Positions 2,579 through 31,723 of a DNA stretch of 38,804 nt are shown here, piece after piece. Source of the stretch: Candidatus Eiseniibacteriota bacterium (GTDB lineage: Bacteria; JAFGKV01); the NCBI GenBank assembly GCA_025453925.1, contig JALOPK010000001.1:1-38804 (forward strand), given 5' to 3'. The notes below the pieces were generated by a model. It worked only from the letters and a program-made list of their open reading frames with translations, did no database searches and was not told where the DNA came from. The first letter of the stretch is position 1. Every line of letters starts with the position of its first letter. The position numbers and the translations under genes are program-made.

Positions 2579-2973
2579 ACGTGACGCCGCATGCTCATCC
2601 CCCAGATCGTGGCATGGCCGCCCCTCGGGAGCGATCTGTCTCCTGCGAGCCATGGTGGCCCGTGGCAGCACCACTTCTTGGTGGCGCGGCCCGCGCTCCC
2701 GCGGTGGGTCCGGTTCGCTTGGCGATGCCGACATTACGTGCTCAGCCCGACGTCAGTGGACTCCACACGTACCGGTCGAGTGTAGCTCCGGGCAGACTTC
2801 CCGAGTTGCCCAGGTATGTGGCAAGACGGAAAGCCCGGACACCTCAGATTGCAGGCGTGATGTCAGGGGATTGCCTTCATACTCGGAGCACCGGGGCGGC
2901 CCGCATAGTCGTGGAAACCAGCTTCGAAAGCGCCCACCCGCGTGGGAACCCGCGGCGGAGGCTCTTTCCCTGC
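2579..2973 (+). other. Spacer between the two sulfatase-like genes; open frame but probably not translated
   Basis: The reading frame of the downstream sulfatase-like gene stays open back to an ATG at 2575 that overlaps the upstream stop codon (ATGA). Translating it would place about 133 low-complexity, Arg/Pro-rich residues in front of a typical lipoprotein signal peptide, which would then be internal and useless for export. I therefore treat this stretch as untranslated. I see no convincing promoter, terminator or RNA gene in it. Confidence 0.5.
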
Positions 2974-5423: not shown

Positions 5424-8400
5424 CTACTCACCGGCAAGCTCCTGCTGCACGAGGCTGAGATACGCCCGCGATTGACGCGAACGCAGCCCCAGGCGGGCCT
5501 TCTGGTCGGCGATCGCGGCGGACGGGTCTCTCCCCTGGTCACGATATGCGCGGGCGGCCCCGACGGCGACGGCGTCAAGTGACACCCCTCTCGCACCCCG
5601 TGGCTGTCTGGCAAGGATGAGTGTTCGGGCGGCGGTGGCGTACGCATCGAGTGCACAGTCAAGGGCTCCGTGGGCACCGCAGGTATCTCCGAGTTCCAGG
5701 AGCTGACCCGCGTAGGCGAGGGACGGCATGTTGAGGAAGTGGGCATTCGCTAGGGCCGCTGCGGCCTGATCAAAGCGACCCGATTCGCGGCAGGCCAGCG
5801 CAAGATCCCTCCAGTACACCGGCCACAGCGGCTCGAAGAACGCATTCGGCCGCCATGCCGCGGCGGCGCGCGCGAGGTGGGGGATCGCCTCCGCATACCG
5901 CCGTTCACTGCACATCAACATGCCGAGCTGGTGATGGAGCCACGGATCATCCCACAGGAGGAGCGCGTGCCCCAGCTCAGTCTCTGCAGCCTCGACGGCG
6001 CCCAGCATGAGCAGTGCGGTGGCGCGACGGCCCATCAGCTTGCCGTGGGCCACCGAGTTCCTCTCCGTGAGGCGTTCGAGGCGTTCGAGGGCGTCCAGCG
6101 CACGCTGTGGTTCATCCCACCGCCGGTACGCGGCAACCAGATTTGAGAGCACGTACCGCATCAACGCGGAGTCTCCCGTGCGCTCGGCGCGGGAGAGCAG
6201 GCGATCCGCCACCATTGTGAGGGATATGCCTCCCTCCGCCACGGAGACTGCCGTGCTCGGTTGTCCGGTGCGGCCGAGGTGAGAGTCGATGAGCTGAAGA
6301 AGCTCGGTGTCGACGAGGCCAGTCCGGGCGAAACGAGGCAGCGCCCCGGACAGCATGATATCACCCTGGGCGATTCGCCATTCAGGGCCGCGTAATGCGG
6401 CAGGGTCCAGAAACAGCGCGTCGGCGAAAGCTCCGAGCGCCCCCTCTTCGTCGCCTGCGGCGGCGAGCGCAGCACCAAGGTCCGCCTGAGGGACCTCTCC
6501 GTCCATCCCGAATGGGTCGAGTTCGACCGACCGCCGGAAGGCTCCGATGGCATCGTCGAGGCGCCCCTCCCGCCACAGCAGCCACCCGATCCTTGAATGA
6601 TAGGGTGCGTAGAGGTTGCGGCGACTCACAGCCGCCGCGTAGTGTGCGAGCGCCTTCTCGCCCGCGCTGATATCACCCAGCGCCGCCTGTATCTCCGCAT
6701 CCAACGGGTTGAGACGGCCCGCATGGCGCAGTCGATCCTCCCGCCCCGCGTCTCCCGCGCCGGGCGCCGCTTGTTTACCTGGCGCCCCCATGCTTTGGGA
6801 CGCCAAAGGTCGCACGACGAAGAGGAGGGCAGCGATGAACACACACGCCGCGGCCCAAATGGCGCCCGATCCCGAGTGATGCGGCTGACGACTCGCCGTT
6901 TCGGGGGCATCAGCCGCAGCGATCCGTTGCACCCCGTTGATGACTCCCAGAAGTACGAAGAAGCAGAGGGGAAGGACCGTACCCGTGCTCAGCGTCAGCA
7001 CCAGAACGTGCGGGACGAGAAGGGCCACAACTCCGGCACTGGCCGCCTCCGTCCGGGAACGGATTTCCTGGGCAACCGAAGGCCTCCGCAGACGCCGTAT
7101 CCCCGCGCACGCCGCCAGAATCACGGCAGCCAATGCAGCAACACCGAGCACGCCCGTGGACTCTGCGATCTCCAGCCCGAGATTGTGCGGATGCCATCCG
7201 ACGCGCCACTCGTTCAGGAGCGACTCGCGGATCGGCGCGAGGCCGCCGGCCTCGACGATTCCCGCCACAGGCACCCGGACCATGGCCGGGATGAGATGAT
7301 TCCCGAAGCCTACCCCGAGCAGCGGGCGATGCCCGATGACGTCAACCGTCAACCGCCACGTGGCCGCCCTGCGGGTGAGTTCCCCGCTTTCGGCGCGCAG
7401 CGACCACGCCAGCATCAGCATCGCCGCAGGCGCGAGGACCATAACCCACCACCACCCGACCTTCCGGCGTGGCCTCGTCAAGCGAAGAAGCAGTAGGGTC
7501 AAGAGGCCCGCGAGCAGCCCCGCGGCGGCAGAACGGGAGTAGGTGAGAACCGTGGGCGGGAGCAGCAGCGCGGCCGCGCCGATGGCCAGCCATCTCCGGG
7601 GGCCGGACCACGTCCCCGCCAGACTCGCGGCCAGGGTGATCATGGCCGCCCCGTAGGTGGCGAGACCGTTGGCGTGGAGTACGCGCAGCCCGAGCCGTGC
7701 CCGCAGCGCGGTCTCCCACCCCATCTTCGAGGCATAGGCGACCACCCCGGCCGCCGCCGCCGCCGCCACCACCGCCGCCACCGCAAGCAGGGTCGTGAGC
7801 AGCCGGTCCACACGGTCAAGACTGCGCACACTCCCCGCGACGAGAAAGAAGACGACCATCCAGGTCAGAAGCCTGACCCACACAGACAGGCTCTGGTGCG
7901 GATAGGGGGAGACCACAGTGGCGGCGAGGCCAACTGCCGCGAAGGCGAGGACGGCGAGATCCAGCATCGTGGGGCGGTCGAGTTCCAAGACTGCCAGGGA
8001 GGCGGTGATGAGCACGATCGCCGCCATCAGGGATCCACGGCTGCCCTCCAGGAGGAATAGATGCCCGTTCACCGCGCCGAAGGTCACGATTGCGGTGACT
8101 CCCATCCACACGGCGCCTCGGATGGGATCATCGCCCGCCGTTCCCCACACCGACGACACCAGGAATGCACCGTACACCAGTATCAGGAATGGGCTCAGGT
8201 TGACCGAGAAGACCGACCCGAGACTCGTCACCCGGGGAAGGTCGTGCACCGAATCAACGGTGATCAGGAACGCGCATGCCTCAACGGCGATGACTGCCAG
8301 CAGCGCCGGTACGTTCCGCGGGAGGCGAGGCCGCCGAGCCCGCCGCCATCGTTCCCACGCCATGACCGCGGCGAGCGTGGCCATGGTCAGCAGCCCCAAT

Positions 8401-8564
8401 CCCGTGACGGCCCGGCCTCCTGTGGCGCGCCAGAGCGGGAGAGTCGCGGCCAGAAGAACGACGATGGTCACCAGAGAGAAGGAGACGGCCGCCCACGGGG
8501 CCCGCCTTGAGGCACCCGCGCGCGAGCACGCAGTGCCCGCTCGACGCTCAGGCGAGGGCTGCAT
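5424..8564 (-). CDS. O-antigen ligase/polymerase (WaaL/Wzy-like) with C-terminal TPR domain, copy 1
   Basis: About 1046 residues. The N-terminal 600 or so are strongly hydrophobic with a dozen or more membrane segments and carry two hallmarks of the O-antigen ligase/polymerase superfamily (PF04932): Y-S-R-S-A-A-A-G at about residue 342, and a periplasmic-loop W-H-P-H-N-L-G-L-E at about 457 followed by E-S-T-G-V-L-G. From about residue 640 come TPR-like helical pairs (for example the A-P-Y-H-S-R-I-G-W repeat). Such enzymes polymerise or transfer undecaprenyl-linked glycans to lipid A or protein on the periplasmic face. The ATG at 8564 overlaps the end of the upstream glycosyltransferase by 17 bases; an open frame reaching 8732 lies wholly inside that gene and is rejected. 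It is the last gene of the long minus-strand operon and faces the sulfatase-like pair. It resembles the ligase-TPR protein at 11726-15109 end to end. Whether it is polymerase, ligase or protein glycosylase cannot be read from sequence. Confidence 0.88.
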   Translation of the reverse strand: MQPSPERRAGTACSRAGASRRAPWAAVSFSLVTIVVLLAATLPLWRATGGRAVTGLGLLTMATLAAVMAWERWRRARRPRLPRNVPALLAVIAVEACAFLITVDSVHDLPRVTSLGSVFSVNLSPFLILVYGAFLVSSVWGTAGDDPIRGAVWMGVTAIVTFGAVNGHLFLLEGSRGSLMAAIVLITASLAVLELDRPTMLDLAVLAFAAVGLAATVVSPYPHQSLSVWVRLLTWMVVFFLVAGSVRSLDRVDRLLTTLLAVAAVVAAAAAAGVVAYASKMGWETALRARLGLRVLHANGLATYGAAMITLAASLAGTWSGPRRWLAIGAAALLLPPTVLTYSRSAAAGLLAGLLTLLLLRLTRPRRKVGWWWVMVLAPAAMLMLAWSLRAESGELTRRAATWRLTVDVIGHRPLLGVGFGNHLIPAMVRVPVAGIVEAGGLAPIRESLLNEWRVGWHPHNLGLEIAESTGVLGVAALAAVILAACAGIRRLRRPSVAQEIRSRTEAASAGVVALLVPHVLVLTLSTGTVLPLCFFVLLGVINGVQRIAAADAPETASRQPHHSGSGAIWAAACVFIAALLFVVRPLASQSMGAPGKQAAPGAGDAGREDRLRHAGRLNPLDAEIQAALGDISAGEKALAHYAAAVSRRNLYAPYHSRIGWLLWREGRLDDAIGAFRRSVELDPFGMDGEVPQADLGAALAAAGDEEGALGAFADALFLDPAALRGPEWRIAQGDIMLSGALPRFARTGLVDTELLQLIDSHLGRTGQPSTAVSVAEGGISLTMVADRLLSRAERTGDSALMRYVLSNLVAAYRRWDEPQRALDALERLERLTERNSVAHGKLMGRRATALLMLGAVEAAETELGHALLLWDDPWLHHQLGMLMCSERRYAEAIPHLARAAAAWRPNAFFEPLWPVYWRDLALACRESGRFDQAAAALANAHFLNMPSLAYAGQLLELGDTCGAHGALDCALDAYATAARTLILARQPRGARGVSLDAVAVGAARAYRDQGRDPSAAIADQKARLGLRSRQSRAYLSLVQQELAGE

Positions 8565-9759
8565 ACGCGTCGAGTAGGCGCGAGATGTGCGTCTCGGTGG
8601 AGAAGGTTTCAATGACACGCTTGCGGCCGGCCCGGCCCATGTCTTCCGCCTCTTGCGGGGCCGACCAGAGTCTGCGGATGGCCGTGGCCAAAGCGGCCGG
8701 GTCTCCTGGCGGCACCAGCACTCCGTCCACACCGTCCTTCACCACGTCGGGGATGCCGCCGATTCCGCTCGCCACCACGGGCTTCCCCGCGACCCATGAC
8801 TCAAGGATGGAAATCCCAAAGACTTCATACCAGATCGACGGCAGCACTGTGAGACGGCATCCCGCAATGGTCCGCCCCAGCCGGTCGCCCGCCAGATGGC
8901 CGAGAAATCGGACATTATTGAGGCCGAGTTCCGTGGACAGGCGCTCAAGATCCTCGCGCACCGGACCCTCGCCTGCCACAAAGAGCGGCACTTCGGGCAG
9001 TAGCCGCATGGCGCGCAGCAGGATGGGCAGGCCTTTCTCCCGTGAGAGCCTCCCCGCGAAGAGGACATACGGGCCTGCCTCCGGTTCGAGGAGGCGCGGC
9101 GTCACCGGCGCGAAATAGGGGATAACGGTCACCTGCCCGGGGCTCAGACCAAAGTCGATGACCTTCTGACGAACGAAGGCGGTGGGCGCGATAAGCCGTC
9201 GAGCGAAACCCTGGAATGCACCAATTGTCCTGTGTGCCGTCATTTCCGCGGCCGCCAGCAGGCTCCATGACCAGGTGCCGAGACACCGATGCGCCACCGC
9301 CTGCCAGAACCGGCCGCCGCGGCACCGCTCACATGGCCTGCCGTCCGTGAACAGGAGGTAGTTCGGGCAGATGAGCTTGTAGTCATTCAAAGTCTGCACG
9401 ACGGGGATTCCCCGACGAGTCATGGGGGGCAGAATCGAGGGTGAGAGATGGTGATAGATGTTGAAGACGTGCACGATGTCAGGCGCGAACGCGTCAAGCA
9501 CCCGTTCCATTCGCCGTGCCCCCTCGCGATACCATATCACGCGCCCTGCCACGCCCCACCTCTGTCGGCTGGAGAGCTGCCGGAAGTCGATCTCCGGCGG
9601 AAACAGGTCGGCAAAGCGCGCGGGCTCGTTGCGCGGGTGCGCCATGGTAAAGGTCTCGACGGCGTGCCCACGGTCCTCCAAGGCCCGCTTCACGCTGAAC
9701 AAATAGCGTTCCGTGCCGGAACGCACGAATCCGTGCTTGTTGACCAGCAGCACTCTCAT
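8548..9759 (-). CDS. GT4-family glycosyltransferase with cysteine-rich insert
   Basis: A 403-residue retaining GT-B glycosyltransferase. It begins M-R-V-L-L-V-N-K-H-G, the Rossmann strand and glycine loop typical of GT4, and its ATG overlaps the upstream stop codon as ATGA (9756-9759). The donor-binding C-terminal half has Y-V-L-F-A-G-R-L-S-R-E-K-G and the E-x7-E motif in Y-E-V-F-G-I-S-I-L-E. The middle contains an insert with paired cysteines (I-C-P-N-Y, then C-E-R-C, then R-C-L-G), which suggests a structural metal site seen in a GT4 subgroup. No membrane segment is evident, so it is a cytoplasmic or peripheral enzyme adding one sugar to the lipid-linked repeat unit. The frame continues upstream to 10305 inside the neighbouring gene, but that extension has no family similarity. 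Donor and acceptor are unknown. Confidence 0.92.
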   Translation of the reverse strand: MRVLLVNKHGFVRSGTERYLFSVKRALEDRGHAVETFTMAHPRNEPARFADLFPPEIDFRQLSSRQRWGVAGRVIWYREGARRMERVLDAFAPDIVHVFNIYHHLSPSILPPMTRRGIPVVQTLNDYKLICPNYLLFTDGRPCERCRGGRFWQAVAHRCLGTWSWSLLAAAEMTAHRTIGAFQGFARRLIAPTAFVRQKVIDFGLSPGQVTVIPYFAPVTPRLLEPEAGPYVLFAGRLSREKGLPILLRAMRLLPEVPLFVAGEGPVREDLERLSTELGLNNVRFLGHLAGDRLGRTIAGCRLTVLPSIWYEVFGISILESWVAGKPVVASGIGGIPDVVKDGVDGVLVPPGDPAALATAIRRLWSAPQEAEDMGRAGRKRVIETFSTETHISRLLDAYAALA

Positions 9760-10701: not shown

Positions 10702-11748
10702 TCATGCCCCCCAGAGCAAAAGGTAGTGCTGAGCCAGGGCCTCCCAGGTATGGGCCGCGGCGAAGCAATGGGCCTGTTCGAGCATCTGCGCAGACGGGCC
10801 TTGGGCGATCACACGGAGCGCCTGATCGGCGAATGTGGCGGGATCAGGCGCGGTAAGGAACAGCTCCGACGCCTGTGGCATGAGCTTGAGATAGTCCTCC
10901 TTGACCGGGTTGTGGTACACCGTAAAGAGAGGACGTCGCCGTACCATGGTCTCCAGCATGGAGAGATAGCCCGACGTGAGCACCAGGGTCGACGACTCGA
11001 TGATCGGTCCGGGGTCGGGGATGAACCCATGGAACGTGGCACGGATGCCCTCATCCCGCGCGAGTTGCTCCAGTGTCGCGCGCCAAGGACCGTCACCGCA
11101 GACGGTAAGAGGGATGTCGATCCCGTGATGGTTTCTCAAGAGTCCAAGGCCGCGAAGATAGATGTCCAACCCCGTGTCGGGCGCCAGCCTTCCGACAAAC
11201 GCCGCGCTATGGGCCTCGGGCGCGGCGGGCACCAGTTCCGGCGCGGTGCAGGCACCGTAGGTGACCACGGTCGGATGGATGCCCAACCATCGCACCAGGA
11301 AATGGCCGATGCACAGCGACCCCCGCGTCAGCCGCTCTGCCATGTCGTGGTAGAGCCTGGCGCGCCTCTGTACAGGGATGCGCATCTCATACCCGTGGTA
11401 GGTCATGAAGCGGGGACGATGAGACGACAGCGCCAGAGACGGGCCCGTCCAATGGAGAAGGCTGTAGACGCCATGGAAATGGATGATGTCCGCGTCCAGA
11501 AGAAGATGCCGATGGTCCATCCACCATCGCCATGCGGCGGGATAGCGAGCCCGGCCCGCGCGGGTGGGCATCCGGAACACCCGCGCGTCGGCCAGCGAGT
11601 CTTCGTCGGGCAGGCGTGGATCGTGCTTCGGGGCCACGAGGGTCAGTGTGATGCCGTGGGAGGCGAGCGAGGGAACAAGCCCCGTCATGTGCCGCTCGAC
11701 ACCGCCGATCGCCGGCGGCAACCGCTCAGCCACCATCAGGACGCGCAT
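10702..11748 (-). CDS. GT4-family glycosyltransferase
   Basis: 348 residues, GT-B fold. The N-terminus M-R-V-L-M-V-A-E-R-L-P-P-A-I-G-G-V-E-R-H is the classic GT4 opening with the glycine loop. The C-terminal half shows A-F-V-G-R-L-A-P-D-T-G-L, V-C-G-D-G-P, and a truncated-looking acidic motif around T-S-G-Y-L-S-M-L-E-T-M in place of a canonical E-x7-E. I chose the ATG at 11748 because the homologous N-terminus begins there and a GGGAG ribosome-binding site lies five bases upstream; the frame is open to 11931 but unrelated in sequence. The start lies 23 bases inside the end of the upstream ligase-TPR gene. It acts on the cytoplasmic face in repeat-unit assembly. The missing first Glu of E-x7-E is a modest oddity. 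Confidence 0.9.
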   Translation of the reverse strand: MRVLMVAERLPPAIGGVERHMTGLVPSLASHGITLTLVAPKHDPRLPDEDSLADARVFRMPTRAGRARYPAAWRWWMDHRHLLLDADIIHFHGVYSLLHWTGPSLALSSHRPRFMTYHGYEMRIPVQRRARLYHDMAERLTRGSLCIGHFLVRWLGIHPTVVTYGACTAPELVPAAPEAHSAAFVGRLAPDTGLDIYLRGLGLLRNHHGIDIPLTVCGDGPWRATLEQLARDEGIRATFHGFIPDPGPIIESSTLVLTSGYLSMLETMVRRRPLFTVYHNPVKEDYLKLMPQASELFLTAPDPATFADQALRVIAQGPSAQMLEQAHCFAAAHTWEALAQHYLLLWGA

Positions 11749-14700
11749 GATCTCCCGTTCTCCCCTCGGTGGCCTTGTCATTGACCAAGGCCCAGTACGC
11801 CTCTCGCACACACCCCCGGCGCGGGACCAGATGGCCGTGCTCATCCGGGACTCGATCCCCCGGGATACCCATCCTGCGATAGTTTCGCCTGGTCTCGGAG
11901 GCCATGAGGCCAAGAAGCCGGCGGGTCTCACCGCTGAGCGACCCGTCTTCCTGCAGGCTGGTTACTCCCATCGCGACGAGGCGCAATGCCGACGAGTAAT
12001 CGGCCTGACCATAGGCAGTGCGGGCGAGGCCGAGCAGCCGTTCGGCATAGGTCTGGGTCGGCATGAGGAGGAAGTGCGCCATGGCATACGACCGGGCGGC
12101 ATCAGGGATTCTGCCCGCCTGTTGTTGTGCCTGGGCGAGATCGTGCCAGACTTGCCACCAAGAACCGTCTGCCGGCACGCCCGGGTCCCAGGACAGCGCG
12201 GCCAACTCCAACTCGCGAATGGCCTCCTCCCGGCGACCCTGCAGGGTGAGGGAGGCAGCGAGGAGGGCGCGGGCCTTGGCTCCATCGGAGCCCGCCAGGC
12301 ATGCTCGAAGTATGTTCTCTGATTCTTCTGGCCGTTTCTGCCCGAGTGCGGCAATGCCCGCCAGTTTCTGCAGGTGAGCCCGCTCCCGGCTTCCGCCCGG
12401 AAGGCGATCCACGAGTGAAGAGAGAACGCGAAAGGCCTCTTCTGGGAGTCCCCACCGCTCATACACGGCGGCGACTCTCTCACCGTGGCGCATCGTCGTG
12501 ACGGCATCGTGCGCGTGAGCGCCGGCCATGTACCGAGAGGCGAGGAGCGAGAACCCGATGCTGCCGCCCGAGGTGCGCGGCTTTTCGGCCGCGGCCCCCT
12601 GTCCGGTATGTTGTTCGATGATGCTGACCATCCGCGCATCCAGGACGCCGTTCGCGGCGAAACGCTCGAAGGCGGCGGAGAGCCGTATCTGGTCGTTTTC
12701 GAGGACCCAGTCGATCGGATTGATTGGATCGGCTGAAAGCCCCATGGCTCGCAAGAAGCACGTTACGGCCTCGTCGCCGCGGCCCGTGGCGACATACGCA
12801 AGGGCGAGGTCGGACATATGCTCTCGGAAGTTGGGACCGACCCAGGTCGCCAGGGTCAGATCCTGTGCCCGCTGCGAGATGAAGGCCTCGGACAGGCTCC
12901 GGCCAAGGGTTTCGTCCTGGATGCGGACAGCCTCCTCGAAATGGCCCAGCGCCTCCTCGAGTCGTTGCTGGCCCCAGAGGCGCCATCCCAGACGCACGTG
13001 GTAAGCGGGATGCCGCGGCCTCAGGCGGCACGCATCCCGGTACCACCGGAGGGCGTCTGCATCCCCCGCCAGATCGCCCGACAGCGCCCGCAGCTCGGCA
13101 TTCAGGGGCATCAGGCGGCACGCCATTTCGATGCGCGCCGGCGACGCCGGTGGTGGTGGCATGCACTTGTCCGCCCCGATAGATGTCCTCACGAGAGTCC
13201 CCGCGAGCATCGGCCGGACCACGCACACCAGCATGACCGTGATCACTGTCAGACTCAGCACGAGTGGTCGCCCCCTGACGCTGCGCAACCTCTCTTCCCT
13301 CGCCTCGAGTGCAGGCAATGACCCTCCCGCCGGGGGGTTCAGCCTTACCGTTGCCGCCGCAAGGCCCAGCAGGAGCCAGAACTCCAAAGGAAGCAAAGAC
13401 GGCGCGCTCAGGCTCAACACGAGCTGGTGCGGAATCAACAGGGAAACCATGGCCGCTCCTATCGCGGCGAGGACTCCACGGACGGGCCCCGCTGATCGTG
13501 ACCATCCCCGCACCACCAGGACGGCAGCCGCGGCGACCATGCCCAGGAAGACGACGAGCCCCGCGGCGCCCGCGCTTTCGAACACCTGCAGGAATAGGTT
13601 GTGGGAATGCCATTGGCTGGCCGGGCTCGCTAGAGGATCCGGATAAGCCCCCGCCGCCCACGCCGCCTGGTTGGCATTGAGGCCCCGGGGCAGGGGGTCG
13701 TAGAACGCCATCACGGCCGGATCGCCAAGCCCGCGTCCAAGAAACGGCCTCCGGGAGACGGAATCGGCCACCATGCGCCACACATTCCGCCGCCAGGATG
13801 CCTCCTGCTGACCCCAGAGCGTCACCAAGGCCCCGGCGACGACAATGAGAGCCCCCGCAGTCACCAGCGCGGGCAGGACGCGGCGCCACGCACTCTGGCG
13901 CGACAGCGGTCCCCTTCGAGCCGCCCACCCCAGCACCGCCAGCCCCGCCAGAAGCCCGGCCGCAGCGGAACGCGAGTACGTGAGCATGAGAATGGGGGCC
14001 GAGAACACCGCCGCGCCATGGGCCAACCCGACTGCCCACCCGGCCTTCCTCACTAAAGCGAAGAGCGCCCCCAAGACTACGATCACCCCCGCGGCGGCCG
14101 CCACGGGGACGATGCCTCTCATCGCGGGAGCGGAAGGGAGCTGCACACCGGCTCGGGCGGCGAGCGACACCCCCACCGATGCCACTGCCGCCGCCGCAGC
14201 CACCCCGATGGTGATCCGGCCCCCGGGAGACCGTGCCCGGAGCGCGCCGAGGGCCAGTGTTATTATGGTTGCCGCGTAGATACCCACGGCATTGGGGTGC
14301 ATGGAGGCCATGCTGAGGCGGGCACGAAGTGCGGCGCCCGCTGATGCATGCTGCGCATAGTTCCACACCCCGTGCAGCCCCGCCACAGCGAGGACGACTG
14401 CCACGGTCAGCATGACTCGCACCGTTCGCGGCGGGGTGCCGGCGTCACGGCTTCGCGACAAAAGCACGAAGGCGAGCGCTCCGGTCCCGAGGCGCATCAG
14501 CATCTCCGCGCTGTAGTGGACATACTGCGCCGTCACCGTGGCCAGGAGGGCGCAGCCCAGGAAGAGCCCCGTCATGACCTCCACGGCCGCGATTTCCCGT
14601 ACCCGGACGCCGCTGTCCCTCCTGATGGGGAGGTGCGCGACGCCGACCAGCAAGATCCCGCTGAGCAGAAAAAAACGCTCATCACCGAGCGCGAAGAACC

Positions 14701-15109
14701 CGCCGTTGAGCGCACCGTACGTGACGGCCGCCCACACCGCCGCTTCAACCATGGAGATCCGGCTCAGTGACACCATCAACGCCATCGAACCGATGAGCCC
14801 GTAATGGAGCAGCCTGTAGTAGGGGCCGAGATGAGTCTGCCATACCGACTGCTGGGTCACGACCTCTGGCAGGGACGCGATGGCTGCGGCAGTGATGAGG
14901 GTTCCTGCCGTTCCCACTGCCGCCAGGCCCAACGTCCTGGAGAAATCGATCCGAAGGCCTCGAACCGCAGTGGTCAGAACGGCGGAGCCGATGATCAGGA
15001 CGGTCACGCCGACCAACTCGACGATCACGGCAGCAGGAAGCAACCGGGCATAGGTGGCGCATACCCCGATGAGAAGCACGCCGGGTACGCTTTCGATCGC
15101 ACCCCTCAT
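11726..15109 (-). CDS. O-antigen ligase/polymerase (WaaL/Wzy-like) with C-terminal TPR domain, copy 2
   Basis: 1127 residues, paralogous to the ligase-TPR protein ending at 5424. The membrane half (roughly residues 1-620) has a dozen or more hydrophobic segments, the motif L-T-Y-S-R-S-A-A-A-G at about residue 378, and the periplasmic-loop motif Q-W-H-S-H-N-L-F-L-Q at about 500 followed by E-S-A-G-A-A-G. The C-terminal 450 or so residues are TPR-like (for example Y-H-V-R-L-G-W-R-L-W-G-Q-Q-R-L-E-E-A-L), probably periplasmic and suited to protein-protein or glycan-chain contacts. Its ATG overlaps the stop of the upstream fusion glycosyltransferase as ATGA (15106-15109), implying translational coupling. 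With two such proteins in one operon, one may act as Wzy polymerase and the other as ligase or oligosaccharyltransferase; that split is an inference. Confidence 0.88.
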   Translation of the reverse strand: MRGAIESVPGVLLIGVCATYARLLPAAVIVELVGVTVLIIGSAVLTTAVRGLRIDFSRTLGLAAVGTAGTLITAAAIASLPEVVTQQSVWQTHLGPYYRLLHYGLIGSMALMVSLSRISMVEAAVWAAVTYGALNGGFFALGDERFFLLSGILLVGVAHLPIRRDSGVRVREIAAVEVMTGLFLGCALLATVTAQYVHYSAEMLMRLGTGALAFVLLSRSRDAGTPPRTVRVMLTVAVVLAVAGLHGVWNYAQHASAGAALRARLSMASMHPNAVGIYAATIITLALGALRARSPGGRITIGVAAAAAVASVGVSLAARAGVQLPSAPAMRGIVPVAAAAGVIVVLGALFALVRKAGWAVGLAHGAAVFSAPILMLTYSRSAAAGLLAGLAVLGWAARRGPLSRQSAWRRVLPALVTAGALIVVAGALVTLWGQQEASWRRNVWRMVADSVSRRPFLGRGLGDPAVMAFYDPLPRGLNANQAAWAAGAYPDPLASPASQWHSHNLFLQVFESAGAAGLVVFLGMVAAAAVLVVRGWSRSAGPVRGVLAAIGAAMVSLLIPHQLVLSLSAPSLLPLEFWLLLGLAAATVRLNPPAGGSLPALEAREERLRSVRGRPLVLSLTVITVMLVCVVRPMLAGTLVRTSIGADKCMPPPPASPARIEMACRLMPLNAELRALSGDLAGDADALRWYRDACRLRPRHPAYHVRLGWRLWGQQRLEEALGHFEEAVRIQDETLGRSLSEAFISQRAQDLTLATWVGPNFREHMSDLALAYVATGRGDEAVTCFLRAMGLSADPINPIDWVLENDQIRLSAAFERFAANGVLDARMVSIIEQHTGQGAAAEKPRTSGGSIGFSLLASRYMAGAHAHDAVTTMRHGERVAAVYERWGLPEEAFRVLSSLVDRLPGGSRERAHLQKLAGIAALGQKRPEESENILRACLAGSDGAKARALLAASLTLQGRREEAIRELELAALSWDPGVPADGSWWQVWHDLAQAQQQAGRIPDAARSYAMAHFLLMPTQTYAERLLGLARTAYGQADYSSALRLVAMGVTSLQEDGSLSGETRRLLGLMASETRRNYRRMGIPGDRVPDEHGHLVPRRGCVREAYWALVNDKATEGRTGDHARPDGG

Positions 15110-20866: not shown

Positions 20867-22303
20867 CTATTCAGCGAACATGGATCGGCCATCCATGTAA
20901 CGGGGAACGGCCTCATCGAGCGCGTGGAGCACGGTCGGCGCCACATCCATGATTGAGACGCATGCTTCACGCAAGGCGCCACATCCCGGCCCCCGGGCGT
21001 AGAGCACGCCCACGGGGCGATGACTTCCCCGATTCTCCACGGAGTTCGCCGTCGCCTCCAGGGAGGACCGAATCGTGAACTGGCCCATGAGGCGAATCCC
21101 CTCATCATGGGGCATAAGGAGCATGTCGGGCGCCCCGGCTGCATGGAGCCCGGCGTAGATGTCATCCCGTGGGACCACCGCCCTTAGCAACGGACTGCCC
21201 TCGTCGTCACGGCAGGCGAGGAGATCGTCGGCCAGCCTGACGCTCAGGTCTCTCTGCTCCGTCCCGGTCGTGATCACGCCATCCGGTTCGCGCCCCTTAA
21301 TGTTGAGCCAGAGCCCGGGACATTCTACGTAGAGCCCGCCGAACGCGCGGGTCCTCCGCCAATCCACCCTGAGCCGCGGAGGGCCGAGCTCTACCCGGGG
21401 CCGCCACCCCCTTGCAGGACGTCGCAGGCGTCTCACGCGAAGCTTGTGGCCGCGATGGAGACGGAGAAACCCGTGCTCGCGGAGCCAGACGTTGACATGA
21501 AACAGATGGCGGCATGGACCGAAACCGTGGTCAGACATCACGATGACCGTCGTCTCGGACCCGGTGGCCTCGAGCAACCGACCCAGCGTCGCGTCCAACG
21601 TCTCGTATGCTGCTTCAACGGCCGCGCCGGGCTCCCCACCGGGCGCACCTTCCGTCTCCCTGGCCTCTGTCTCACCCCAGAGCATGTGTTGGACCTTGTC
21701 GGCCAAGGTGAACACCACCATGAAGAGGTCCCATTGCTCCTGCCCCAAGAGCCAGAGTGCCGCGTCGCGTCTCGCCGCATGTCTCCGCGCGAGTTGCGCG
21801 CTCAGGTGGCCGGCGTCGAGCGTGTCGAGGTCGCCAAAGCCGTCCGCCTGGTAGTCGGGAATTCGCGTGCGCAAGTGATCGGCCACCGCAGCGGGAAATG
21901 TGAAGTCGGATCGCATTCCCGGAGTGGGCAAACCGGTCACCATTACCCCGTTCACCGGTCGGGGGGGAAACGTCAGCGGCACGTTCAGGGAGCAGACCCG
22001 GCGCCCGCGTCGGCTGAGTATCTGCTCCAGGGTTGCCGCGCCGATGTCCGCGCTGCTCACCAGTGGCCATTCATAGCCCGAACGGCGCCAGAACCCGAAC
22101 GCGCCGTGTTTCCCCGGGTTCACGCCCGTTCTGCAACTCGTCCACGCAGGGGCGGAGTTGGCCGGGAATGTTGACTGAAGACGCCCCGCGCAGCCCTCCG
22201 CCATGAGCCGCGCGAGGACCGGAAGCCGACGGGCATTCACCATTCGGTCGGCGACAGCCGGCTCGAGACCGTCGAGGCCGACCAACAGGACCCGGGCTCC
22301 CAT
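20867..22303 (-). CDS. Alkaline-phosphatase-superfamily phosphodiesterase (PF01663 type), intact active site
   Basis: 478 residues without signal peptide or membrane segment, so apparently cytoplasmic. All expected metal and nucleophile positions of a type I phosphodiesterase/nucleotide pyrophosphatase-like enzyme are visible: D11 in V-G-L-D-G-L-E-P, nucleophile T55 in A-P-A-W-T-S, D202 and H206 in A-D-K-V-Q-H, D258 and H259 in M-S-D-H-G-F-G, and H428 in N-R-G-S-H-R-P-V-G. D-V-A-P-T-V-L-H near the C-terminus is the usual tail motif. The family hydrolyses phosphodiesters or phosphomonoesters; many loci encoding Wzx/Wzy pathways in uncultured bacteria carry it without known substrate. The start is three bases after the stop of the paralogous gene upstream, with which it aligns without gaps for the first 60 residues. 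The substrate could be a nucleotide-sugar, a polyprenyl phosphate or a glycan phosphate. Confidence 0.88.
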   Translation of the reverse strand: MGARVLLVGLDGLEPAVADRMVNARRLPVLARLMAEGCAGRLQSTFPANSAPAWTSCRTGVNPGKHGAFGFWRRSGYEWPLVSSADIGAATLEQILSRRGRRVCSLNVPLTFPPRPVNGVMVTGLPTPGMRSDFTFPAAVADHLRTRIPDYQADGFGDLDTLDAGHLSAQLARRHAARRDAALWLLGQEQWDLFMVVFTLADKVQHMLWGETEARETEGAPGGEPGAAVEAAYETLDATLGRLLEATGSETTVIVMSDHGFGPCRHLFHVNVWLREHGFLRLHRGHKLRVRRLRRPARGWRPRVELGPPRLRVDWRRTRAFGGLYVECPGLWLNIKGREPDGVITTGTEQRDLSVRLADDLLACRDDEGSPLLRAVVPRDDIYAGLHAAGAPDMLLMPHDEGIRLMGQFTIRSSLEATANSVENRGSHRPVGVLYARGPGCGALREACVSIMDVAPTVLHALDEAVPRYMDGRSMFAE

Positions 22304-22306
22304 TGC

Positions 22307-23806
22307 CTACCCCAGATACCCCAGAGCCCGCAGATGTGCCTCCACACCTTGCCGCTCGACGGCGGACAGTTCCTGCGCTGCAGAGCGGGGCAGACCATCG
22401 GGCGAGGCAACTACACGAACAGGATGATCCCGCAACCAAGAGTCATCAAACAGCTCCGTCGCCACCGTTCCTTCCATGTGGCCGGGCACCGGCACACCGA
22501 GGATATGGAGAACAGTCGGTGCGATATCCGTGAGCCGCATGGGCACCGCATCCCCATCCCCGGCGCAATCCCCGGCCAGAGCCAGCACTCCTCCGCCGAT
22601 CATATGGAACTCACCTTCCGGAGCCGGACCCATCACCGAGCTGGCATCCAGGGAAGGGCATGTCGCGATTCCCTCGTCGGCCGGCTCAACTACCAAGTCA
22701 GGCAAAGGGATCAGGCCGGGCCCGGCAGACAGGTTCTCGCGGATCAAGACATTGCCCACGGCCGGCAGATCGGCGATGCTGTCCCGGATGAATCTCGCGC
22801 GGGCGGCGCGATCAGTGAGAGGCGCCCGGGAAGCATCGCTTCCCACAGGTGCCCCGGATCTCCCCCCGCATGAGAGAAAGACCCCGGCGTCGTCGGCAAG
22901 GGCCGCCGTCCGTTTCCCGTCTACGCCGCGGCGTTGCCCGAGTTCTCCGGGGAGTGCGCACTGCTCCATCAAGAAACGGCACGCCGACGAGTCCCGCCTC
23001 GACAACCGCCGCAGCGCGCGCCGCGCCGTGCCGGATGGAGAAAGCCGGAGCAAACCCTGTTGTTCCAGCCAGGCATTGAGGTGAAGATGGCTTCGCACCG
23101 TCGCGGCGTGTGTTGGCGACACCAGCAGCAGTGCCCGCGCGGGTATCTCCGAGATCAACAGGCGAAGGAGGGCGTCGAGCCCGTCCGGCATCCCGGGCGT
23201 TGCACCGGTTCGCGCGCGGGAGCCACGCGCCCGCCTCGCCCCGGCAAGATGCCGAAAGCCAATGGCGATGAGGTCACTGTCCTGCTGGTCCCGCATCCAG
23301 CGCACCATGCGGATGACCCCCTCTGCGCGGCGAACGCCTTCAGTGGTCTCAACGGAGGCCAGGGTTGCCCGGTCCGAGGGCGGCATCGCCTCCCACAGCC
23401 CCCGCGGGAAGCTGTCCCATGGGTCGGGAGGCATGGTCAATGCCACGCCGTTGATGGCCGCCGGCGGCCAGGTGAGTGGAACGCCCACCGCCGCCACCCG
23501 CAGGCCTGCTTCCCCGGCGACGGCAAGGAGGCTGGGGAACGCCAGCCGCCAGATCGAAGGGCCCGCGCGCTCCGGGCCCCCGTCCACACTCCGCCCTCCC
23601 CACACCCCGTGGGCGGATGGCTCGACACCCGTGTGCACCGTGGCCCAGGCCGCCGCCTGGCTGCGGGCGAGACCGGCCGAAAAGATGCCCTGAGAGCCTC
23701 CATCGAGGAATGGGCGGAGGGCGGGCTGGCCCGCGCGGCGTTCCGCGTTGCCGACGGACGAGGGAGTCAGCCCTTCCGTTGCGAGTACGATGACCGGAGA
23801 ACCCAC
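22307..23806 (-). CDS. Degenerate phosphodiesterase-like protein (probable pseudoenzyme paralog)
   Basis: 499 residues from the GTG at 23806, chosen because the protein then aligns residue-for-residue with the start of the downstream phosphodiesterase (M-G-S-P-V-I-V-L-A-T-E-G versus M-G-A-R-V-L-L-V-G-L-D-G). The active-site positions are replaced: D11 is Glu11, the nucleophile T55 is Ala55 (A-A-W-A-T), the D-K-V-Q-H pair is lost around residues 186-192, and S-D-H-G has become S-P-T-H at 230-233. Structural motifs survive, such as H-T-G-V-E-P-S-A-H-G, H-L-H-L-N-A-W-L and D-I-A-P-T-V-L-H. The reading frame is intact over 1.5 kb, so this looks like a maintained non-catalytic partner and not a decaying gene. 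The C-terminus ends L-R-A-L-G-Y-L-G, a motif also found in the two sulfatase-like lipoproteins. The frame stays open to 24034, without family support. Confidence 0.8.
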   Translation of the reverse strand: MGSPVIVLATEGLTPSSVGNAERRAGQPALRPFLDGGSQGIFSAGLARSQAAAWATVHTGVEPSAHGVWGGRSVDGGPERAGPSIWRLAFPSLLAVAGEAGLRVAAVGVPLTWPPAAINGVALTMPPDPWDSFPRGLWEAMPPSDRATLASVETTEGVRRAEGVIRMVRWMRDQQDSDLIAIGFRHLAGARRARGSRARTGATPGMPDGLDALLRLLISEIPARALLLVSPTHAATVRSHLHLNAWLEQQGLLRLSPSGTARRALRRLSRRDSSACRFLMEQCALPGELGQRRGVDGKRTAALADDAGVFLSCGGRSGAPVGSDASRAPLTDRAARARFIRDSIADLPAVGNVLIRENLSAGPGLIPLPDLVVEPADEGIATCPSLDASSVMGPAPEGEFHMIGGGVLALAGDCAGDGDAVPMRLTDIAPTVLHILGVPVPGHMEGTVATELFDDSWLRDHPVRVVASPDGLPRSAAQELSAVERQGVEAHLRALGYLG

Positions 23807-24218
23807 TATGGAGTCCCGCGCGCAACAGAGAGAGGCGAGGCCACTGGTTCGCCGGGCATTCCCACTTCCGCGGGACGGTTCTCGCAGGATTTCAGGATCA
23901 TCCGTCGTTGAGAGTGCCGGTGATCGGCGTTCCCGCCGACCGGTCGTGAGAGGAATGGATCGGCGCGGCGTGGCGGCACACCCGTCTCTGTGAAGAGGAA
24001 CGGCTGCCCGCCCTTCAAATGCGGCGCACAGCATTCCGTTTCGTCACGGACTCGGTGCACATGCGTGGGGCGAGCCGTTCTGGTCGCCGGAATCGCGCGC
24101 CCGCCCCGCTGAGAGAACGAAGTTGAACGGGCCGCCCGCATACCACGGGAGCCCCTCGGTGGGGAAACCGCCCGGCCGACGCCCTGCCGCGAGATCACTG
24201 GCCGCCGCGATCCAGGTA
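23807..24218. other. Non-coding stretch inside the minus-strand operon
   Basis: About 410 bases between the outer-membrane barrel gene and the degenerate phosphodiesterase gene, unusually long for this tightly packed cluster. Open frames on both strands here have no recognisable start, ribosome-binding site or family motif. I found no convincing sigma-70-type promoter and no hairpin followed by a T run. It is the most likely place for an internal promoter or processing site separating the barrel/lipoprotein pair from the glycan genes, but nothing in the sequence proves that. Confidence 0.4.
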
Positions 24219-25430
24219 TCAGCCCGATGCGGCGCCCAGGGCGAACTGTACACCCAGCGCCTCGCTACGCGACGTCGGTATGCGAAACCCAGTTGCACCA
24301 AGGCGCAGGCGCAGGGGGCCGGGTCTCAACTCCAGCCCGGCGGCCATACCGAAGCCTTCCGGCCGACCCGCTCCCAACTCCAGCCATGTTCGCAGCCATG
24401 CCCGGGCATCCCAGATCAGACCAGCATGCACGCGGGGCGATGTGGTGACACCGGCCCAGGAGCGCAGTCCCTGGTTCCATCGCGCGTAGGCGCCGCCCCA
24501 CGGGAGCCGGCGGCCGATGTGCACTTCCATCCGGGCAGGTAAGGGCGTCGACCACCGACCGACGTCGTACGTGCTGTCGGAGCTGACATACCCGCTATCT
24601 CCCAATTCCGCGGTCCATTCCTCCGCCTGGAACTCGACCAGCTTCTCCTCGACCCCCTTCCAGGAGAGTGAGGGTCCCAGATCCTTGAGCACGATCTCCA
24701 GCTCCCACTGGTCCCTGGCCGCGCGGCCGCCGAGGTCGAGCGCGACGCCGACGGGAAGGCGGGACTCCGGGTCGTCCGTCGTGCGCCGTACGACGGTGAC
24801 ACCTTCCGCGGTGAGGCCCTCTACTTCGGTAAGTACCGCGAACGAACTCCTCGTGATCTTGGCGGCGAGGACGCCCAACACGATTCGGGCGCCAATCCCC
24901 GACGAGGTTTCCCATCCGGCTATCCGGCCGCTTGGGAACCCGTATGATCCGCCGGCGGACAGGTAGGTCAACATGCCACCCGAGTTCAGCAGTTCATAGC
25001 GGCGATCCAGTGCATTGCCGAAGAACATCAGGTCGATGAGGTCCTTATCGAGGCTCAGGTCTCCCCCCAGATAGGCCCTCGTGATGAAGGCCGCCCGGCC
25101 GACGCGTATTCCCAACGCCTCAGCCTCGCCCTGCAGGAACCCCCTGGCGGTCTTCCCGGAGATGCTCTCCAGGATCGTCCTCTTGTCGTCTTCGTCGAGG
25201 TACTCCCCGCTGTACCTGCGATAGAGGTCCAAGCTCACGGCATTGTTGCGGACCGCCACGCTCCCATGCACCAGGTAGGCCTCCCAGGCCCCCATGGCGG
25301 GATCGGCCAGAGCGGCTGGGTTGGCGAGCCACGCGACTCCTGACCCTGACCATCCGCCGGGCGCTGCCCATGCCGCGCCGGCGGTCATCAGAGATATGAT
25401 CAGCCACACCGCGGGGTTACATGTCATCAT
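24219..25430 (-). CDS. Outer-membrane beta-barrel protein (DUF5723/TraF-like)
   Basis: 403 residues from the ATG at 25430 (a second ATG follows at 25427). An N-terminal signal peptide (L-I-I-S-L-M-T-A-G-A-A-W-A-A) is followed by G-S-G-V-A-W-L-A-N-P-A-A-L-A-D, the opening found in DUF5723 and TraF_2-type outer-membrane proteins. The next segment, with V-R-N-N-A-V-S-L-D-L-Y-R-R-Y and D-E-D-D-K-R-T-I-L, also fits that group. The remainder alternates polar and hydrophobic residues with many glycines and aromatics (for example G-G-M-L-T-Y-L-S-A-G-G-S-Y-G-F), as in beta-barrels. The start overlaps the upstream lipoprotein gene by 14 bases, so the two are probably co-translated and may form an outer-membrane pair. 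No role in glycan export has been established for the family. The fold call is fairly sure, the family name moderate. Confidence 0.75.
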   Translation of the reverse strand: MMTCNPAVWLIISLMTAGAAWAAPGGWSGSGVAWLANPAALADPAMGAWEAYLVHGSVAVRNNAVSLDLYRRYSGEYLDEDDKRTILESISGKTARGFLQGEAEALGIRVGRAAFITRAYLGGDLSLDKDLIDLMFFGNALDRRYELLNSGGMLTYLSAGGSYGFPSGRIAGWETSSGIGARIVLGVLAAKITRSSFAVLTEVEGLTAEGVTVVRRTTDDPESRLPVGVALDLGGRAARDQWELEIVLKDLGPSLSWKGVEEKLVEFQAEEWTAELGDSGYVSSDSTYDVGRWSTPLPARMEVHIGRRLPWGGAYARWNQGLRSWAGVTTSPRVHAGLIWDARAWLRTWLELGAGRPEGFGMAAGLELRPGPLRLRLGATGFRIPTSRSEALGVQFALGAASG

Positions 25431-26577
25431 CGAGCTCGATGCGCGACGTAATGCCCATGAGTATCCTGGCGGAAATGGAGTCGTCCGCACAGATGCAGAT
25501 CCGGCGCGTGCCCGATCCATCCAACAGATACTCCACGGCTGCGTACAGCGTATCGTTCCCCGGGCCGGGGTTCGCGAAGAGGCCCAACTGGTCCTCATCA
25601 AGACTCACGCTGGTCTGCGCATGCGCCACGCCCGTGGATTTGCCGGTGATGGGGTCCACCGATGGGGCCTCGAACGCGAAAGGCCCGATCAGCAGTTCCG
25701 GATCATCCCATAATCGCAGTGAATCGTTGTCAACCCGGACGCAGGCGTGTCCGCCGAGCGGCAGGTTGTTGTCGACATCGGCAATAATGAGAGCCGCACG
25801 GAGATTCTCGGTCAGGTCGCCTTCGACGTCCGCATCGTCGGAGTCGCCGTCAGCCGGATCAATCACCAGCTTCTGCACGATGGAGCGTCGATCCACATCC
25901 GCGCCGTCAAAGGTCAAGTCGAATGCGGTGAGCAGCGATACCTGCACCGACAGGGTCGCCTGGGGACCGACCGGCCGGCCCTGCGCCGTATACGCCAGCG
26001 TACTGGTCGCCGCATAGCTGTCGGGGACGGCATGAGTCGGGGAGGGATTGATGAAGATCAAGATCTGGGGGTCGGTCACGAGGTGGGTCGAGACGATCTC
26101 TTCACCACTGAGTGACGAGGGGGCGTTCACGGAAACACGCAACGGCCCGGATGGCCGCCCATCGTCATCCCAGCCTTCTATCGCCGTCTCGATTTCCACA
26201 GTGCCCGGCAGATTGTGCCTGACGACAATCTCGAGCCAGGCGCGGTAGAACGAGGGATTCTCCAGCTCATCCAGGGGATTGCCGCTCCATGTGGCGGTGC
26301 CACCAGGGATTACCGCCTCCCCCTGGGTAGGCAAGCCCTGAAGGGTGGCCGGGTCGGCGACGATCACGTCGGACACGACGCTGGCGACCACGCTATCCGA
26401 ATCCATCAGGCGAAACGGGCCATACTCGCCGAAGAAGAAGTCGCCCTCGGCGCCAACCAGCTCGCGCACGAATGCGGTGCGTGAAACCAACGGCACGTTG
26501 GCAGTCACGTCCCACGTCGGGGCCTTCGGGCTTGGGATGGAGCAACCGGCGACCAGCAGAATGAGAAGTCGGCGCAT
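25417..26577 (-). CDS. Acidic lipoprotein of unknown function, partner of the outer-membrane barrel
   Basis: 386 residues. The N-terminus M-R-R-L-L-I-L-L-V-A-G-C is a very short lipoprotein signal peptide with lipobox V-A-G-C (Cys12). The ATG at 26577 is preceded five bases upstream by a perfect GGAGG. The mature part is rich in Asp, Ser, Thr and Val with predicted beta character (V-E-I-E-T-A-I-E-G-W-D-D-D-G, D-G-D-S-D-D-A-D-V-E-G-D) and has no motif I recognise. The acidic runs could bind calcium. The product should be lipidated and sit in the outer membrane with the barrel protein whose gene overlaps its 3-prime end. It is the first gene of the long minus-strand run, so its promoter probably governs much of the glycan operon. 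Function unknown. Confidence 0.8.
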   Translation of the reverse strand: MRRLLILLVAGCSIPSPKAPTWDVTANVPLVSRTAFVRELVGAEGDFFFGEYGPFRLMDSDSVVASVVSDVIVADPATLQGLPTQGEAVIPGGTATWSGNPLDELENPSFYRAWLEIVVRHNLPGTVEIETAIEGWDDDGRPSGPLRVSVNAPSSLSGEEIVSTHLVTDPQILIFINPSPTHAVPDSYAATSTLAYTAQGRPVGPQATLSVQVSLLTAFDLTFDGADVDRRSIVQKLVIDPADGDSDDADVEGDLTENLRAALIIADVDNNLPLGGHACVRVDNDSLRLWDDPELLIGPFAFEAPSVDPITGKSTGVAHAQTSVSLDEDQLGLFANPGPGNDTLYAAVEYLLDGSGTRRICICADDSISARILMGITSRIELDDDM

Positions 26578-30676: not shown

Positions 30677-31723
30677 ATGTGCTCGCTCCGAAGGTCACGA
30701 CATCGCCTGCGACGCTCGATCAAGCATATGCTTGCCCGGCGACACGAGCGCCGCAGAGTGCTCAATATTGTCATCGCGACTTTGGCAAGTGCCGTCTTCC
30801 TGTGGGTCGCCGTGCACATCATACCGGGATTCCTTGCCCGGGTGGGAGAGAAGACGCTGGGCGTGGCCGCCGCAAAAGGCAATGCCGACCTGATGCGGAT
30901 CCTCCTGAGCCTTGGTATCGAACCGGGGACGCCCGATCCCTTCGGCCTCACGCCCCTCCACCGCGCGGCGTACCAAGGAAGGGTCGACCTCGTCGAACTC
31001 CTGCTGCAGCGCGGCGCCAACCCCGGATTCCCCGGCCAGGGCGGCATGACCCCGCTCCATCTGGCGACCATGTCGGGGTATGATCAGATCGTCAACCGTC
31101 TCATCGCGGCAGGTGCGCCCATTGGCTCAGAGGACACCAAGGGGAGAACCCCGCTCTTCTACGCCGTCGCCCGCAACTTCAGGCCGATCGCCGATTCGCT
31201 TATCGCCCACGGCGGAGACATCGATGATCGGGATATGCTCGGTCAATCCGTGCTGCACCACACGATCCAAGGAGGGCGGGTCGAATCAGCCGAACTCGCG
31301 CTCGCGCTCGGGGCCGATCCCGAAGCCGCCGACAGCACCGGCGTGCGGCCACTGCACCAGGCCGCCCGTCGCGGCCTGCTCTCCGTGATGGATCTCCTCC
31401 TCGCTCGTGGAGCAGAGCTTCAGGCCGAAGCACTGGATGGGCAGTCGCCCCTTCACTACGCGGTCAACGGGGGGCAACTGGAGGCAGCCCAACTCCTCAT
31501 CGAGCGAGGCGCCAAGGTCAACATACCCATGGACCGGGGCGTTACCCCGCTTCACGCAGCCGTCATTTCCCGCAACTACGAGATGGTGCGCCTGCTTCTC
31601 GAACGAGGCGCTGACATCAACGCAGTGACCGACAAGGGGTGGACTCCGCTTCACTACGCCGCGTCGGCGGGCGAGAGCAAGATCATCAAGCTTCTCACCC
31701 AGTACGGGGCTCGGTACACCTAG
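30677..31723 (+). CDS. Membrane-anchored ankyrin-repeat protein
   Basis: 348 residues. A strongly basic N-terminus (R-R-S-R-H-R-L-R-R) precedes one membrane segment at about residues 29-50 (V-L-N-I-V-I-A-T-L-A-S-A-V-F-L-W). By the positive-inside rule the rest should lie in the periplasm. Residues from about 60 to the end are eight or so ankyrin repeats of about 33 residues, with clear T-P-L-H-x-A-A consensus cores such as L-T-P-L-H-R-A-A-Y-Q-G and W-T-P-L-H-Y-A-A-S-A-G. There is no enzymatic domain, so it is probably a scaffold or binding protein. The ATG at 30677 follows a GGGGGG stretch; an alternative ATG at 30728 would shorten the basic tail. It ends 72 bases before the convergent ABC transporter gene. 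Its link to the glycan locus is only positional. Confidence 0.9.
   Translation: MCSLRRSRHRLRRSIKHMLARRHERRRVLNIVIATLASAVFLWVAVHIIPGFLARVGEKTLGVAAAKGNADLMRILLSLGIEPGTPDPFGLTPLHRAAYQGRVDLVELLLQRGANPGFPGQGGMTPLHLATMSGYDQIVNRLIAAGAPIGSEDTKGRTPLFYAVARNFRPIADSLIAHGGDIDDRDMLGQSVLHHTIQGGRVESAELALALGADPEAADSTGVRPLHQAARRGLLSVMDLLLARGAELQAEALDGQSPLHYAVNGGQLEAAQLLIERGAKVNIPMDRGVTPLHAAVISRNYEMVRLLLERGADINAVTDKGWTPLHYAASAGESKIIKLLTQYGARYT

Follow-up and report, generated by a model that had tools for sequence, protein, structure and literature searches.

Genes at the locus and their neighborhood

The window (the whole stretch of DNA analysed here, 38,804 nt, contig C428) belongs to a metagenome-assembled genome of 3.9 Mb, which is split into 502 contigs and 82% complete. 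It contains two head-to-tail neighbors on the minus strand, hereafter P1 (upstream protein of the pair) and P2 (its downstream neighbor). Both stand between a beta-barrel-like gene and a polysaccharide cluster of the glycosyltransferase/Wzx/Wzy type. The features are listed below in transcriptional order; residue columns are given in P2 numbering.

24219..25601, minus strand: upstream gene without Pfam or NCBIfam match, the predicted product looks like a beta-barrel
22307..23806, minus strand: P1, 499 aa, GTG start, PF01663-like, catalytic centre lost, H401 kept
23657..23659, minus strand: codon of P1 residue 50 (Gln), the family nucleophile position (Ser50 in P2)
22304..22306, minus strand: gap of 3 bp from the P1 stop codon TAG to the P2 start codon ATG
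20867..22303, minus strand: P2, 478 aa, ATG start, PF01663 phosphodiesterase-like, all seven catalytic residues
19823-20776, minus strand: GT2 glycosyltransferase, downstream of P2
18229-19797, minus strand: Wzx-like flippase, downstream of P2
5424..18221, minus strand: remaining polysaccharide cluster with GT2 and GT4 glycosyltransferases and two Wzy_C/O-antigen-ligase plus TPR proteins

The reading frame of P1 is open across 1.5 kb as originally predicted, and its codon use is near the level of its neighbors. The codon signal amounts to 0.151 bits/codon for P1 and 0.183 for P2, whereas the other forward frames of P1 are negative. The P1 open reading frame extends upstream to 24034. However, the stretch above 23806 scores -0.09 bits/codon vs. 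+0.15 for P1. Hence 23806 is a reasonable start, and a longer P1 beginning at 24034 was ruled out.

The spacing of only 3 bp makes it probable that both genes are co-transcribed and translationally coupled, and we infer that P1 is expressed. A consensus scan, which is weak evidence, found neither promoter nor terminator around the pair. On reading the sequences, no obvious N-terminal signal sequence was seen in P1 or P2; both proteins are thus probably cytoplasmic and would act there.

Further features of the window are as follows. The two Wzy_C/O-antigen-ligase proteins of the cluster (5424-8732 and 11726-15109, both minus strand) are ~1100 aa long and carry C-terminal TPR repeats each. At the cluster edge, two adjacent and overlapping paralogs of the PF00884 sulfatase family, likewise of the alkaline-phosphatase superfamily, are encoded on the plus strand (260-2578 and 2575-5232, 772 and 885 aa); by eye, the metal motif SDHGEEFWEH is kept in both. 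A 348-aa ankyrin-repeat protein (30677-31723, plus strand) is located between UDP-sugar dehydrogenase and ABC transporter genes.

P1 and P2 are members of the same family

P1 and P2 share 25% identity over 483 residues (E 5e-21), and the gap-free alignment originally described for their first 60 residues was confirmed for residues 1-60. P2 scores 131.3 bits against PF01663 and is thereby a member of the family (cut-off 23 bits). P1 reaches 22.4 bits, marginally below this cut-off. A family profile built from 26 relatives with P1 excluded scores P1 at 166.5 bits across both halves. Judged by this homology over the whole domain, P1 is a member of PF01663 by descent. PF01663 here is the NPP-like branch of the alkaline-phosphatase superfamily, of which P1 is a full-length member. 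The C-terminal tail ...LRALGYLG of longer paralogs is present in P1 and absent from P2.

Among solved structures, the P2 profile has its closest sequence match in the phosphonoacetate hydrolase PhnA (3szy, 1ei6; E 5e-11). P2 (28.7 bits) and P1 (12.5 bits) score far beneath the PhnA cut-off of 407. The match nevertheless fixes the position of the nucleophile, as shown below.

P2 has a complete catalytic centre that is lost in P1

Catalytic columns were taken from an alignment with 25 relatives: D11, S/T50, D202-x-x-x-H206, D258-H259 and H428. P2 has the nucleophile and all six metal ligands (D11, S50, D202, H206, D258, H259, H428), and its D11, D202, H206, D258, H259 and H428 are conserved columns of the family. 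The original prediction of a complete P2 site hence stands for all residues except the nucleophile, which had been assigned to T55. This assignment was ruled out by the S/T50 column of the family together with the PhnA alignment. S50 of P2 aligns with a Thr of PhnA, the only position in the aligned stretch at which the wild-type entry 3szy (Thr) and the entry 3t02 (Ala) differ. PhnA likely employs a Thr nucleophile (PMC10574752), and nucleophiles of the superfamily sit at the helix that comes after strand 2 (PMC11677397).

At the same seven columns P1 reads E11, Q50, A188, R192, P231, T232 and H401, with P231/T232 deriving from an ungapped alignment. In an alignment of 77 rows, which is shifted by one residue, T232 takes the place of D258 and H233 that of H259. 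Depending on the alignment, P1 has therefore lost five or six of the seven catalytic residues; the nucleophile and both members of the DxxxH pair are among them. The losses at residue 11, of the D-x-x-x-H pair and at P231/T232 had been predicted correctly. A55, named as the altered nucleophile, is in turn irrelevant, since the family column and PhnA place the nucleophile at residue 50, i.e. Q50 in P1, and the last histidine is retained (H401, corresponding to H428 of P2). Neither the nucleophile (S/T, here Q50) nor the set of metal ligands (E, A, R, P/T, T/H, H) is that of an active enzyme. These substitutions support the view that P1 is catalytically inactive.

A hidden frameshift behind the missing DxxxH and DH motifs was ruled out, as both other frames contain stops and no such motifs.

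Predicted structure of P1

An AlphaFold model of P1 based on 77 aligned sequences (pLDDT 82.6, pTM 0.86) displays a complete NPP fold. Since almost all aligned sequences are active relatives, the model indicates compatibility with the fold rather than proving it. Q50 opens a helix (residues 50-59). One uninterrupted strand (225-236) takes in the stretch corresponding to the SDHG loop, and a rebuilt DxxxH loop is modelled as well.

Using VIA-align, the model matched the Xanthomonas Xac NPP best (2gsn/7mw8; 336 residues at an rmsd of 4.1 A, Z 24.0); human ENPPs followed in a tie. The matches listed were mostly ENPP/NPP chains, along with PafA, SPAP and sulfatases. Xac NPP and the vertebrate ENPP family thus share the fold of P1 over ~336 residues, and their metal and nucleophile residues are of the kind also kept in P2. 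The identity is only ~15%, both window proteins have no obvious signal sequence, and P1 differs by its missing nucleophile and the loss of most metal ligands. With catalytic residues lost but frame and, as predicted, fold kept, P1 probably represents a folded pseudoenzyme and not a pseudogene of recent origin; that it folds in the cell is likewise inferred.

P1 is exceptional among its homologs

Homologs were drawn from the own genome, from relatives and, on named genome contigs, from 79 loci taken with up to 10 kb of flanking DNA. Because the search patterns for these contigs included active-site stretches, active members are favored in this set; the flanking genes were free of this selection. 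All seven catalytic residues are intact in 188 of the 204 distinct homologs. P1 ('EQARPTH') is the only one of the 204 with at least three substituted catalytic residues, and nearly all remaining non-intact homologs show one or two changes, are fragments or are loosely aligned.

Other candidates for dead members (L093/L127, L076, L108, L170, L179 and similar) were rejected. They are devoid of one or two residues only, mostly the last histidine in a loosely aligned column, and none is P1-like. Rows missing at least three catalytic letters turned out to be fragments at contig edges or other types of the alkaline-phosphatase superfamily with unaligned loops. Two PF01663 proteins (L076 7272-8783 and L108 443-1942) have two substituted metal positions (D202 to V/N, last His to Asn). 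They possibly represent milder pseudoenzymes or altered metal sites.

Neither an ortholog of P1 nor a second dead/active pair was found in one same-genus genome, one same-family genome, 386 genomes and the genome-contig collection. Separate searches of three phyla gave no closer homologs, and PLSDB plasmids yielded one partial match of 24% identity but no closer homolog. Across all collections searched the nearest homologs are ~25-34% identical to P1, which is saturated. Neither a decayed frame in a sister strain nor a close P1 homolog keeping the site was seen in these collections, which contain no close P1 homolog. Moreover, the open literature (subscription papers excluded) on pseudoenzymes, on COG3379/AlkP and on phosphodiesterases of Wzx/Wzy loci held no matching description, nor did it describe any pseudoenzyme partner for the NPP-like branch in bacteria.

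Adjacent PF01663 genes are common, a dead member is not

Adjacent same-strand PF01663 pairs with both sites intact occur at least 33 times in 98 loci, with runs of up to five genes. The recurrence of dead/active pairs with the same lost residues, proposed as a check of the original prediction, did not materialize: the 204 homologs contain no second case. Hence adjacent paralogs are ordinary in this family and a dead member is not; among the 204 homologs, P1 alone has lost its centre.

The own genome (C422) and a same-genus relative (G001 C162) share an intact PF01663 pair in another polysaccharide cluster, which comprises Wzz/BY-kinase-like, glycosyltransferase and epimerase genes. Like P1/P2, these pairs and the tandems in candidate division TA06 (L086) and Chloroflexota (L101) consist of adjacent same-strand PF01663 paralogs. 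In contrast to P1/P2, however, the active sites are intact in both members. The TA06 case (bacterium SM23_40, L086 6854-15206) is a tandem array of five PF01663 genes with all sites intact.

Constraint versus decay of P1

Columns conserved to at least 90% in 148 non-redundant active relatives were compared. Of the 39 non-catalytic columns passing this filter, P1 keeps 29 and P2 37. P1 retains only one of the six catalytic columns passing the same filter (Fisher p 0.012 vs. 29/39). Including all seven catalytic columns, P1 retains 1/7 (p 0.005) or 2/7 (p 0.03) under the two alignments. Nevertheless, P1 has lost ten of these 39 strongly conserved structural columns (e.g. W315 and G342), and residues around the DxxxH loop are missing as well.

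Neutral drift was simulated at the base composition of the window, ignoring indels. The joint probability of an open frame and at least five of seven catalytic changes is ≤2.3e-3, and ≤4.6e-4 for at least six of seven. Taken together with the model and the retained 29/39 positions, this backs the original proposal that P1 keeps structural motifs and is under selection; the ten lost columns and the restriction to one genome limit it. A dead P1 kept by selection is, for this one genome, reasonably supported by these indirect signs in the sequence.

The branch leading to P1 is long: 3.33 vs. a median of 0.92 in a careful tree of 27 rows, and 2.28 vs. a median of 0.59 in a quick tree of 36 rows (P2 0.96). 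A branch of about four times the median fits relaxed constraint as well. P1 might accordingly be a decaying tandem duplicate whose frame stayed open by luck or under long weak selection, in a high-GC setting where stops are rare. The GC content of 65.5% slows the appearance of stops, GC3 drops to 0.63 over the final 100 codons of P1, and the lost structural columns, the very long branch and the lack of P1 in same-genus and same-family genomes point in the same direction. Against this stand the joint neutral probability of ~2e-3 or less (without indels), the concentration of losses on catalytic residues and a near-normal codon signal, so that we regard decay as unlikely, albeit as a serious contender. 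An assembly or sequencing fault is far less plausible. The genome is indeed fragmented and incomplete, but the substitutions in P1 are spread gene-wide, while a single frame stays open, codon use is normal and GC resembles that of the genome; point errors would not produce this.

Alternatively, P1 could be changed instead of dead, performing other chemistry or binding e.g. a nucleotide sugar or glycan lipid independently of P2. E11, H401 and perhaps H233 still are in the pocket, which is modelled as remodelled (strand 225-236, rebuilt DxxxH loop) beyond a mere knock-out. No replacement for the metal ligands or the nucleophile can be seen, though, and the new residues of P1 are found in no homolog. 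We regard a changed function as rather improbable. The reading we favor, at tentative confidence close to an even chance, is that P1 is a translated, folded pseudoenzyme that arose by duplication and is kept for a non-catalytic job, most likely binding of P2 or its substrate.

Putative relation of P1 to P2

According to the favored reading, P1 would have arisen via duplication in a family often forming tandem arrays, would then have lost the nucleophile and most metal ligands, and may have been retained for its non-catalytic job. Retention by selection is what the kept columns suggest. The likeliest job would be to bind P2, or the phosphoester, nucleotide-sugar or lipid-linked substrate of P2, whereby P1 would stabilise or regulate P2 within the polysaccharide pathway.

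Whether P1 is a direct duplicate of P2 was addressed by the same trees. In the 36-row tree both are sisters with an SH-aLRT of 78, below the mark of 95, while the 27-row tree places P1 elsewhere with poor support. Origin of P1 as a direct P2 duplicate is thus possible. The partnership is suggested by the 3-bp spacing and this weak sister signal, and any tandem duplicate would share the spacing. A physical contact of P1 and P2 with a regulatory effect, taken by itself, appears doubtful. The full proposal, in which P1 would be a pseudo-phosphodiesterase subunit dedicated to binding P2 and to controlling or feeding it in polysaccharide synthesis, is likewise regarded as doubtful. A precedent for such an arrangement is the deoxyhypusine synthase of trypanosomatids, in which the live enzyme is activated by a dead paralog within a hetero-oligomer (PMC3663545). 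The likeness concerns the way of working only: that family is unrelated and its case was proven biochemically, whereas such an effect in P1/P2 is conjectural.

PF01663 phosphodiesterases in other polysaccharide clusters

PF01663 phosphodiesterases with unknown substrates are frequent in bacterial polysaccharide clusters and often arranged in tandem. If the favored reading is true, a dead beside a live member would suggest that tandem PF01663 copies can form hetero-oligomers, and P1/P2 would offer a way to learn what the two proteins bind. A P1 that is merely decaying would instead be what frequent duplication of such a gene ordinarily leaves behind.

Another block with two PF01663 genes is conserved in two species (L064 5399-13439 and L065 6294-14367). 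It consists of an outer-membrane-protein-like gene, a short and a long PF01663 gene and a gene for a large multi-pass membrane protein with a sulfatase-like domain. The block adjoins Wzz/BY-kinase-like and glycosyltransferase genes.
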